From positions 62,001-126,000 of the forward strand of contig NZ_ABCT01000006.1 in assembly GCF_000170915.1 (NCBI RefSeq): DNA of 64,000 nt. Reading direction: 5' to 3'. This document shows, piece by piece, positions 28,628 through 32,021 of this stretch. The position numbers and the translations under genes were made by a program. The notes below the pieces were generated by a model. The model worked only from the letters and a program-made list of their open reading frames with translations. It did not search any database and was not told where the DNA came from. Origin of the DNA: Limnobacter sp. MED105. Lineage in GTDB: Bacteria; Pseudomonadota; Gammaproteobacteria; Burkholderiales; Burkholderiaceae_B. Every line of letters begins with the position of its first letter. Within the stretch, counting starts at the first letter, position 1.

Positions 28628-29413
28628 TTATTCTGCCATGCCACCCACAACTGTGCTGTAGCCCGCATCCACATAGGTAATTTCAGCGGTAATGCCGCGC
28701 GCCAAATCGGAAAGCATGAAGGCTGCAGTATTGCCCACATCGTCAATGGTGACATTGCGGCGTAGCGGCGCTGCTTCTTCTACGGCATGCAAAATTTTGC
28801 TGAAACCTTTAATGCCGGCTGCAGCCAGAGTTTTGATGGGGCCTGCTGAAATACCGTTTACGCGAATACCCTTGGGTCCCAGTGATTCAGCCAGGTAGCG
28901 AACCGACGCTTCCAGCGATGCCTTGGCCAGGCCCATGGTGTTGTAGTTGGGTACCATGCGAACCGAGCCCAGGTAGCTTAGCGTTAACAAGGCGCCTTCG
29001 CGGCCTTGCATCATCGGGTAGGCTGCTTTGGCCAGTGCCGGGAAGCTGTAGGCGGAAATGTCATGCGCAATGCGGAATGCTTCGCGCGAAATGCCTTCCA
29101 GAAAATCGCCGGCGATGGCTTCGCGCGGAGCAAAGCCGATGGCGTGCACCAAACCATCCAGGCCATCCCAGTGTTTGGCCAGTTCTGTGAACAGGCTTTC
29201 AATTTGGGCATCCTCGGCTACATCAAGCGGAAATACCAGCTTGGAGTCGAATTCGGCAGCCATGTCGGTCACGCGGTCAATGAAACGCTCGGTTTGGTAT
29301 GTGAACGCCAGTTCAGCACCCTGCGCGTGGCAGGCCTTGGCAATACCGTAAGCGATTGAACGGTTTGACAGAAGGCCCGTGATAAGAATTTTTTTACCGG
29401 CTAGGAATCCCAA
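28628..29413 (-). CDS. fabI: Enoyl-ACP reductase (NADH) FabI
   Basis: Final reduction step of each fatty acid elongation cycle. 261 residues, matching E. coli FabI (262), with the FabI-specific nucleotide-binding '[15 protein letters not shown]' and the active site '[14 protein letters not shown]' (Tyr-x6-Lys). The start is TTG at 29413 with AGGAG nine bases upstream. A perfect -10 (TATAAT on the minus strand, 29465-29460) lies about 50 bp upstream inside a GCCTATTATAGGC palindrome, a candidate promoter or operator. Genes for the Att-like exporter follow on the same strand. Confidence 0.96.
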
Positions 29414-29488: not shown

Positions 29489-30628
29489 TCAGGGTCGGTT
29501 AGACAAAGGCTTGGGGTTGGCTGACAGCTTCTTGGGTGCAGTGCTGCCCAATCCGATCGGGGCCAGGTAACCCTGAAACTGCTCAGCACAATTTTCCCAG
29601 GTGAAGGTACTCGCATGTTTCAAAGGCACATCGCGTTCAATTTTCAATGCGGCCATGGCGGCGGTCTTCAAATTCCAGTCCAACACGCCTGCACCGGAAT
29701 TGCCGACCACATCCAGCGGTCCGTTCACAGGGAACGCCGCCACTGGGCAACCGCTGGCCATGGCTTCCAACAGCACCAAGCCGAAGGTGTCGGTCATGCT
29801 GGGAAACACGAATACATCAGCGCGTTTGTACAACTCTGAGAGCGCTGCGTGGTTCAGCATCCCGAACCACCTGGCCTCGGGGTATTGTTTCTCTAGCCCT
29901 TTGCGGGCAGGACCGTCGCCAGCAATCCATTTCTCGCCCGGCAGTTCAAGGCTTAAAAAAGCCTCCAGATTTTTTTCAACTGCTACACGCCCTGCATACA
30001 AAAAAACCGGTTTCTCGATGCTGCACGCGTTCAAACGGTGCAGCAGTTCAACCTGTTGGGCATCGTCGGTTGGCAGGTCGCGGGGGCTGTAACTCATGTG
30101 TTTGCTGGCTACCGACTGCTCCGGATTAAAGCGTTTCAAGTCCACGCCACGTTGCCACAATACGCAATTGTTCAATCCACGGCCTTGCAAGGTGTTGATG
30201 ACCGACAAGGTGGGCACCATCACTGCGCGGGAAGGTTTGTGGAACCAGCGCAGCAAGGCTGCGGTAAAGCGAATTGGTATGCCCGAACGTGCCCTCACAT
30301 ACTCGGGAAACTGGGTGTGGTAGGCGGTTGTAAATGGCAACTTGCGGCCGTGGGCCAGCAGGCGCATGGCCAAGCCAATTGGCCCTTCGGTCACGATGTG
30401 CACCGCCTGTGGTTTGAATCGGTCCAGCTCATTGCGCAGGCGCGTGAATGGCCACAGTGCCAGTCGAATTTCAGGGTAAGTAGGGCATGGAATGGTTTTA
30501 AACAAGCCCGGGTGGATAACCCGCACATCGTGACCCTGCGCGGTTAGTTGCGCCACCACTTGGCTTAGCGTTTGCACCACGCCGTTGACCTGTGGTGTCC
30601 AAGCGTCAGTTGCAATCAGGATTCGCAT
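29489..30628 (-). CDS. Group 4 glycosyltransferase, Agt-like (probable diacylglycerol glycosyltransferase)
   Basis: 379 residues of the GT4 fold: N-terminal 'ATDAWTPQVNGVVQTL' acceptor-side motif, then the sugar-nucleotide half with 'FLYAGRVAVEKNLEAFL', 'GDGPARKGLE' and the EX7E region 'PSMTDTFGLVLLEAMASG'. The pattern is that of the group containing the diacylglycerol glycosyltransferase Agt, plant SQD2 and mycobacterial MgtA. It starts 6 bp after the phosphoesterase gene and so shares its Pho-box promoter. In phosphate-starved bacteria Agt glycosylates the diacylglycerol that PlcP releases from phospholipid; I infer that role here from pairing and regulation. The sugar donor is unknown. Confidence 0.82.
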   Translation of the reverse strand: MRILIATDAWTPQVNGVVQTLSQVVAQLTAQGHDVRVIHPGLFKTIPCPTYPEIRLALWPFTRLRNELDRFKPQAVHIVTEGPIGLAMRLLAHGRKLPFTTAYHTQFPEYVRARSGIPIRFTAALLRWFHKPSRAVMVPTLSVINTLQGRGLNNCVLWQRGVDLKRFNPEQSVASKHMSYSPRDLPTDDAQQVELLHRLNACSIEKPVFLYAGRVAVEKNLEAFLSLELPGEKWIAGDGPARKGLEKQYPEARWFGMLNHAALSELYKRADVFVFPSMTDTFGLVLLEAMASGCPVAAFPVNGPLDVVGNSGAGVLDWNLKTAAMAALKIERDVPLKHASTFTWENCAEQFQGYLAPIGLGSTAPKKLSANPKPLSNRP

Positions 30629-30634
30629 GCTGGT

Positions 30635-31576
30635 TTACTCCGCCAGGGTGTGCGCAAGCGCTTTTTGTTTGCGAACCGGCAGGTCACGGTGTGGCCAGTG
30701 AACAATGTCCAGTTTCCCGCAGGGGTGCTCAACCAGCGCGGTCAGGCTTTCTACCCAATCGCCGTCGTTGCAGTACAGCAAGCCATCCACTTCTTTGATC
30801 TCGGCTTTGTGAATGTGTCCGCACACCACCCCGTCGTAACCGCGGTGTTTGGCTTCATGAATCAGCGCGTGTTCAAACTCGAGAATGAAGTTCACGGCGT
30901 TTTTGACCTGCTGTTTCAAGAACTGTGACAGCGACCAATACGGGTAGCCCAGCTTGATTCGAATGTTGTTCAACACGCGGTTCAAAGTCAGTGCAAAGTT
31001 GTACAGCGTGTCGCCCAGGTAAGCCAGCCATTTGGCGTAGCGCACAACCTGGTCAAACTCATCGCCGTGCACTACCCACAGGCGTTTGCCATCTGCTGTC
31101 ACATGCACTGCGTTTTCCATGATCGGAATGTCACCGAAGGTCATCCCTGCAAACTGGCGCGCGGCTTCGTCGTGGTTGCCCGGAATGAAAACCACCTGCG
31201 TGCCTTTGCGTGCCTTGCGCAGCACCTTTTGAATGACGTCGTTGTGGCTTTGTGGCCAAAACCAGCTTTTGCGCAACTGCCAGCCGTCGATGATGTCGCC
31301 CACCAGGTAAAGGGTGTCGCTTTCGTTGTGTTTCAGGAAGTGGAGCAGGGCGTCTGCCTGGCAGCCGGGTGTGCCAAGGTGAATGTCTGAAATCCAGATG
31401 GTGCGGTATTTGTTGGAACCCTGCTCATCAGCGGCGGGGTCAACTTCAGATTGATTTTGCTGGTTTGTTGGCTCAGCATGTGGTTCGGTGGTCGCCTTCG
31501 CAAACAGTTGTTCGGCAAGTTGCTGCTTGAAATTCAACTGGTTCGAGCGCATTTTTAATGTCCATGTTCTTGTCAT
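30635..31576 (-). CDS. PlcP-like metallophosphoesterase (UDP-2,3-diacylglucosamine diphosphatase family)
   Basis: Calcineurin-like phosphoesterase with the full metal-binding set: 'ISDIHLGTPG', 'YLVGDIIDGW', 'IPGNHDE', 'VVHGDEFD' and 'VVCGHIHKAE'. The characteristic 'SWFWPQSHNDVIQKVLRKAR' places it with the LpxH-related proteins that include PlcP, the phosphate-starvation phospholipase C of Sinorhizobium and marine bacteria. The first ~55 residues are a polar, low-complexity extension; the ATG at 31552 is an alternative start. A strong Pho box lies 34 bp upstream and a GT4 gene 6 bp downstream. Classical LpxH (lipid A synthesis) is the alternative, but that would not need phosphate control. 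Confidence 0.83.
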   Translation of the reverse strand: MTRTWTLKMRSNQLNFKQQLAEQLFAKATTEPHAEPTNQQNQSEVDPAADEQGSNKYRTIWISDIHLGTPGCQADALLHFLKHNESDTLYLVGDIIDGWQLRKSWFWPQSHNDVIQKVLRKARKGTQVVFIPGNHDEAARQFAGMTFGDIPIMENAVHVTADGKRLWVVHGDEFDQVVRYAKWLAYLGDTLYNFALTLNRVLNNIRIKLGYPYWSLSQFLKQQVKNAVNFILEFEHALIHEAKHRGYDGVVCGHIHKAEIKEVDGLLYCNDGDWVESLTALVEHPCGKLDIVHWPHRDLPVRKQKALAHTLAE

Positions 31577-31609
31577 GGCCCCATTAAACGCGCTCGATTT
31601 GACTACCTT

Positions 31610-31638
31610 GTGACAGTTATATGACTCTTTTTTGACAA
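31610..31638 (-). promoter_or_regulatory. Tandem Pho box upstream of the plcP-agt-like operon
   Basis: On the minus strand GAGTCAT-ATAA-CTGTCAC (31627-31610) matches the consensus CTGTCATAWAWCTGTCAY at 16 of 18 positions. A third unit TTGTCAA (31638-31632) precedes it with the same 11-bp period. It ends 34 bp before the phosphoesterase ATG and points toward it. The -10 hexamer is not obvious (TCAAAT at 31602-31597 is the best, slightly close). Confidence 0.75.
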
Positions 31639-31672: not shown

Positions 31673-31942
31673 TTATTTTGCTTCCAGGCTTTTCGGAAGC
31701 CACCAGGTAAAGCCGTACAACAGGGTTTTTGACACCACTTCCATCGTTGGCAGGTTTTTGCCCCGCAGTCGCAAGAAGGCAATTGGCAACTCAAGCGTGT
31801 GGGCTACCAGCAGCAAAGCGGCCAGCACCAACAGGAAGGGCATCACAAGGCTGATCAGCAAGTAGGCCGGAACCACAATCCAGAAGCCGTTCATGACTTT
31901 GCGCATGGATTCAAACGATTGGGGGCTGACTTTAATGGCCAT
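31673..31942 (-). CDS. Small inner-membrane protein, possibly DUF1145-like
   Basis: 89 residues from the ATG at 31942, which has AGGAAAA six bases upstream; a longer frame to 31984 lacks such a site. Two hydrophobic segments are visible ('FWIVVPAYLLISLVMPFLL' and 'VLAALLLVAHTLELPIAFL'), followed by a basic, Trp-containing tail. The 'HTLEL' motif and overall shape recall DUF1145 (YhhL-like) proteins, but I cannot confirm this. It is upstream of, and in the same direction as, the phosphoesterase gene but separated by the Pho box, so it is probably a separate unit. Confidence 0.6.
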   Translation of the reverse strand: MAIKVSPQSFESMRKVMNGFWIVVPAYLLISLVMPFLLVLAALLLVAHTLELPIAFLRLRGKNLPTMEVVSKTLLYGFTWWLPKSLEAK

Positions 31943-32021
31943 TTGTTTTCCTAAGGGGTGGGTCGGCAAAATTGAATATGACAATAGTTCTTGTCAGAAG
32001 CCTTGTCAAGCGTGTTTGGGC

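Follow-up and report, generated by a model that had tools for sequence, protein, structure and literature searches.

A Pho-type promoter precedes a plcP-agt-like gene pair in Limnobacter sp. MED105 and points to phosphate-responsive membrane lipid remodelling in Betaproteobacteria

The window analysed here is a 64,000-nt stretch of the Limnobacter sp. MED105 genome. On its minus strand lies a plcP-like gene (30635..31576; 313 aa; alternative in-frame ATG at 31552) whose product carries calcineurin-like phosphoesterase domains. An agt-like gene encoding a 379-aa GT4 glycosyltransferase (29489..30628, minus) follows it after 6 bp, and the open reading frames 31576..30635 and 30628..29489 bear out the junction described in the first-pass annotation. 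The fabI gene (28628-29413, minus; 483.6 bits, cut-off 440) starts 75 bp after agt on the same strand, and is downstream of agt in 12 other loci of the genus too. We considered fabI as a part of the plcP-agt system and found nothing that shows its membership; outside the genus, FabI occurred near plcP in 7 of 80 betaproteobacterial loci (the best 80 of 589), as weak matches of 26-28%. Upstream of plcP, a gene for a 92-aa protein (31673-31951, minus) recurs in a further 12 loci of the genus; this protein had no family match, and none in the best 80 of the 589 betaproteobacterial loci. These 80 loci are mostly from Burkholderiales with some from other Betaproteobacteria, and fractions calculated on them lean towards close relatives because they are the best-scoring of the 589.

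Ahead of plcP, the minus strand from 31638 to 31583 reads TTGTCAA AAAA GAGTCAT ATAA CTGTCAC AAGG TAGTCAA ATCGAGCGCG TTTAAT. The tandem Pho units that had been claimed for this strand are thus confirmed in sequence, at 31638..31599. The third unit, TTGTCAA, is in phase as had been proposed, and a fourth unit, TAGTCAA, which had been missed, is in phase with the other three on the 11-bp repeat. Exactly 10 nt separate this last unit from TTTAAT (31583..31588, minus), a putative -10 hexamer. Our test for a Pho-regulon promoter was an array of tandem 11-bp units with regular spacing to a -10 element, and this layout would place the site in the Pho regulon. With TTTAAT as the -10, transcription would start near 31576. 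The plcP-like gene has in-frame ATGs at 31576 and 31552. Because the -10 is so near 31576, the message would be leaderless at the first ATG, or would carry some 24 nt of leader if the second is used.

The two-unit match by itself carries little weight. The first-pass annotation had reported that GAGTCAT-ATAA-CTGTCAC agrees with the PhoB consensus at 16 of 18 positions, which holds if any A/T-rich spacer is accepted and either C or T is allowed at the last base. At the fixed positions of CTGTCATNNNNCTGTCAT the pair matches 11 of 14, and this is not significant alone, since two-box matches at 11/14 stringency were at chance level in the window (5 observed vs. 4.7 expected). Genome-wide, the two-box pattern gave 191 matches vs. 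90 for the reversed pattern in 3.39 Mb, which is mildly informative. Because the pattern is uninformative in the window and only mildly informative in the genome, we used phasing and conservation as criteria. On both strands of the window, the plcP site is the sole place where at least three GTCA cores follow one another every 11 bp. Forty simulated windows (second-order Markov) yielded 0.05 runs of at least three per window and none of four. Unlike the two-unit match, the four-unit phasing is significant.

We then compared the promoter among relatives. In the 11 closest genus loci (the window's own and ten close congeners), mean pairwise identity is 0.90 over the 56-nt footprint and falls to 0.49 in the 40 columns that immediately precede it; coding stretches nearby have identities of 0.87 and 0.93. 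Of the 14 genus loci (the window's own and 13 relatives), 10 retain the GTCA core in all four units, 2 in three and 1 in two; the remaining locus (L126), with a poorly aligning upstream region, retains it in a single unit. Among the 11 closest loci, 7 have TTTAAT as the -10 hexamer and 4 have TCTAAT; TGTAAT, TCCAAT and TTCCAT occur in the other three genus loci. Beyond the genus, 78 loci from the best 80 of 589 were scanned; they are not independent, and the 80 include many near-duplicate species of Burkholderia and Paraburkholderia. With up to 2 mismatches allowed, 45 of these 78 had a Pho box upstream of plcP, while the reverse strand gave 0 and shuffles 0.2. Allowing 3 mismatches raised the count to 55, with 14 on the reverse strand and 3.05 in shuffles, and left 23 of these 78 loci with no upstream Pho box. 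These data bear on whether the site is a fossil, or is bound by PhoB without effect while the plcP-agt pair is expressed constitutively. Each unit does carry one to three differences from CTGTCAT, as such a view would have it. We judge it very unlikely, given that conservation is far higher in the footprint than in the intergenic sequence beside it, that the phase is regular with 10 nt to the -10, and that boxes recur in more than half of the scanned relatives' loci.

The phosphoesterase had been proposed to be PlcP-like, and the comparisons agree. The window protein is 53% identical to Sinorhizobium meliloti PlcP over 247 residues and 55% identical to Pseudomonas aeruginosa PlcP, vs. 29% over 123 aa for Escherichia coli LpxH. 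In a tree of 41 sequences, the four LpxH rows split from the PlcP-like rows with a support of 1.000, which places the protein nearer to characterised PlcP and outside the LpxH clade; on the PlcP side, the branches near the references are poorly supported, some at 0.46 to 0.5. The motif GNHD is found in 36/36 PlcP-like rows of the tree set and GNRD in 4/4 LpxH rows. Two of these LpxH rows are established, E. coli by annotation and the window genome's own by exceeding the cut-off; the other two (L139 and L142) were assigned by motifs. Residues D64, H66, D94, N134, H170, H254 and H256 are invariant in an alignment of 26 sequences. We take them to be the metal ligands expected of a PlcP-like protein, and the protein would accordingly have the intact metal site of a metallophosphoesterase.

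The S. meliloti and P. aeruginosa reference proteins were drawn from annotated records (L155 and, on a plasmid, L156). In the S. meliloti record plcP adjoins LuxR and AHL-synthase genes, which we take to be the SMc00171 neighbourhood. In the P. aeruginosa record (NZ_CP137508.1) plcP, glycosyltransferase and adenylate cyclase genes are consecutive, presumably in the order PA3219-PA3218-PA3217. The two PlcP proteins are 46.6% identical to each other, in agreement with the 46% printed in a passage of PMC8528852. Three P. aeruginosa plasmid records have a plcP match, and the plcP-agt1 block of L156 resembles a chromosomal segment on a plasmid.

LpxH belongs to the same metallophosphoesterase superfamily and has metal-ligand motifs similar to those of the window PlcP, from which it differs in having GNRD in place of GNHD. 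The phosphoesterase might then be a second LpxH-type lipid A enzyme. LpxH is the nearest family of solved structure, and it gives the best NCBIfam match, at 44.8 bits vs. a cut-off of 134 (NF003743); with TIGR01854 the score is 32.3 bits vs. 190.35. S. meliloti and P. aeruginosa PlcP are likewise far below the LpxH cut-offs. Relatives of the protein are also annotated as a lipid A enzyme: "UDP-2,3-diacylglucosamine diphosphatase" is the NCBI label of PlcP from both S. meliloti and P. aeruginosa, so for relatives the first-pass annotation was right to foresee this kind of label. A predicted structure of middling confidence (pLDDT 75.6) has LpxH as its best match with a TM of 0.44 and a large rmsd, and with these values the model would confirm the superfamily only. 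Set against a second LpxH are the tree split, the replacement of GNRD by GNHD, and a separate LpxH of the same genome (C41:9097-9807; 207 bits, above the curated cut-off of 190.35), whose absence would have spoken for a lipid A role. We regard a second LpxH as extremely improbable.

For the glycosyltransferase, the closest characterised protein is P. aeruginosa Agt1 (45% identity over 352 residues). Identity to plcP-adjacent glycosyltransferases is 51% in Sphingomonas and 44% in Roseomonas. By its clear homology to a characterised Agt and the same gene order, we assign the protein as a probable Agt; all remaining GT4 matches of this genome are short and score weakly (best 27.7 bits). A homologous glycosyltransferase gene directly follows plcP in all 14 genus loci and in 69 of the best 80 of 589 betaproteobacterial loci. 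The other 11 of those 80 have no adjacent glycosyltransferase by the criterion used; at least two of them are uninformative, as one (L108) ends 99 bp after plcP and the other (L067) has an interrupted frame. It is conceivable that PlcP is real and the glycosyltransferase uses another acceptor, a surface polysaccharide or a phospholipid, in which case the operon would serve envelope modification. GT4 acceptors are hard to infer from sequence, and the best NCBIfam matches of the protein include GlcN-phosphatidylglycerol synthase and monoglucosyl-DAG synthase, both far below cut-off. P. aeruginosa Agt1, however, yields these same weak matches, and the order of plcP and glycosyltransferase gene is kept in most betaproteobacterial loci. 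A different acceptor thus seems to us quite unlikely.

Among 200 genomes sampled from the order to which the window belongs, 92 gave a PlcP match at E 1e-40 or better, and matches at E 0.001 were found in 27 of 40 relatives, one of these (G021) being weak and LpxH-like. Two further genus genomes (completeness 85 and 65%) had no PlcP match, and 11 of the 24 other relatives searched had either none or a weak LpxH-like match alone.

We consider it highly probable, from these sequence comparisons, that plcP-agt is a PhoB-controlled operon by which phospholipid head groups are removed and glycolipid is made under low phosphate. The proposal of a phosphate-starvation lipid-remodelling operon made in the first-pass annotation is in this sense supported. 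Under low phosphate, phosphorylated PhoB would bind the four tandem units, which would replace a -35 element, and recruit RNA polymerase to the TTTAAT -10. PlcP, a predicted two-metal phosphodiesterase inside the cell, would cut off the phosphate head group and leave diacylglycerol, to which the Agt-like enzyme would add glucose or glucuronic acid. The outcome would be a membrane lipid without phosphorus, together with freed phosphate. The most likely products under phosphate shortage are thus predicted to be glucosyl- or glucuronosyl-diacylglycerol, and perhaps ornithine lipids are made as well.

Passages of four papers (PMC8528852, PMC4796936, PMC9239053 and PMC5082522) describe PlcP producing diacylglycerol and Agt glycosylating it, with PhoB as the proposed or shown regulator; among them are experimental precedents in marine bacteria (PMC4796936), Methylosinus trichosporium (PMC9239053) and P. 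aeruginosa (PMC8528852). According to passages of the last of these papers, P. aeruginosa likewise has plcP followed by agt1 (PA3219-PA3218) with a Pho box upstream. The comparison with the window covered gene order and protein identity. The two genes overlap by 4 bp in P. aeruginosa and are separated by 6 bp here. Those passages also place a second agt elsewhere in the P. aeruginosa genome, whereas here the other GT4 matches are weak and short. The S. meliloti record, unlike the window, lists no glycosyltransferase beside plcP, in a gene table that may be incomplete. Passages on Methylosinus trichosporium OB3b, an Alphaproteobacterium (PMC9239053), describe a plcP-agt cluster as here, and a mutant without GADG which grew more slowly under phosphate limitation. 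Passages of a Baltic Sea study (PMC13086504) name plcP and Betaproteobacteria, and contain no betaproteobacterial plcP-agt operon. A literature search, covering the titles and abstract openings listed and with most subscription papers outside its range, found no description of a betaproteobacterial plcP-agt.

The genome has the regulator and other sites of this type. It encodes PhoB (363 bits, cut-off 296), and the best box in the genome by pattern, GTGTCATATTACTGTCAT, lies just upstream of phoB. Among the pst genes (pstS at 415 bits; pstC, pstA and pstB named by reading of the open reading frames), TTGTCATTTTTTTGTCAT precedes pstC by about 60 bp, and a third unit, ACGTCAA, is in phase with it. 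A nucleotide-sugar dehydrogenase gene (C20:17848-19240; L031, L189; 444 bits to TIGR03026) probably encodes UDP-glucose dehydrogenase. Upstream of it are three in-phase units, CTGTCAC AATC CAGTCTT AAAT CTGTCAA, with no convincing -10. Two genes, on contigs C20 and C46, exceed the TIGR03026 cut-off, and the site scan covered the former. A Pho-type site ahead of the dehydrogenase suggests that glucuronosyl-diacylglycerol may be among the products.

An OlsB-like N-acyltransferase gene (C33:56878-57675; L170:1879-2676; 156 bits to the OlsB model, cut-off 320) carries CTGTCAC upstream of TACATT at a distance of exactly 10 nt, and the in-phase units above it are weaker. All 12 aligned genus rows, the window genome's own included, have CTGTCAC or CTGTCAT at this site; a thirteenth, partial genus locus was left out. 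Outside the genus the signal is weak: among 22 loci of other genera, 3 boxes at up to 2 mismatches compare with 2 on the reverse strand (12 vs. 3 at up to 3 mismatches). The chance of a right-strand match in a 150-nt upstream stretch is about 0.4%, calculated from the 191 matches in 3.39 Mb. Because the dehydrogenase and OlsB-like genes were chosen for their function, the Pho support for both is suggestive. An inverted repeat, GTCAT-CGA-AATGAC, immediately precedes the OlsB-like gene (L172) and is kept in most congeners. In passages of published work, UDP-glucose 6-dehydrogenase and OlsAB of Pseudomonas putida are PHO-dependent (PMC5082522), and Pho boxes are predicted ahead of olsB in 21 of 43 Burkholderia sensu lato genomes (PMC7814305). 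No match to betaine-lipid synthesis (PF11899) was found in the window genome.

The OlsB-like gene is also a neighbour of plcP in other genomes. It was found near plcP on the same strand in 21 of the best 80 of 589 loci, 12 times upstream within about 150 bp and 9 times downstream within 1.8 kb. Homologues of ppk1 and ppx were near plcP in 19 and 11 of these best 80 of 589, respectively. In this genome the OlsB-like gene, ppx and ppk1 (the last two named from open reading frames) are together on contig C33, apart from plcP. An ancestral cluster that later split would be the simplest reading of this layout. We see an even chance that Burkholderiales and their kin have a two-armed PhoB-run programme, in which plcP-agt makes glycolipids with sugar supplied by a PhoB-run UDP-glucose dehydrogenase and the OlsB-like gene provides an arm for ornithine-type lipids, and that an ancestral plcP-agt-olsB-ppx-ppk1 cluster split into two loci in this genus. 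If true, such a cluster would link the freeing of phosphate from membranes with polyphosphate metabolism.

The pathway is already known in other bacteria, and the betaproteobacterial case is, as judged from the features of the locus, a well-supported addition to it. The plcP-agt pathway, studied in marine bacteria, rhizobia, methanotrophs and Pseudomonas, can now be placed in Betaproteobacteria, in a group that is common in fresh water and soil. Because the database records examined label the genes as a lipid A enzyme, the trait is hidden from surveys. For lipidomics of cells starved of phosphate, the finding also yields a straightforward prediction.
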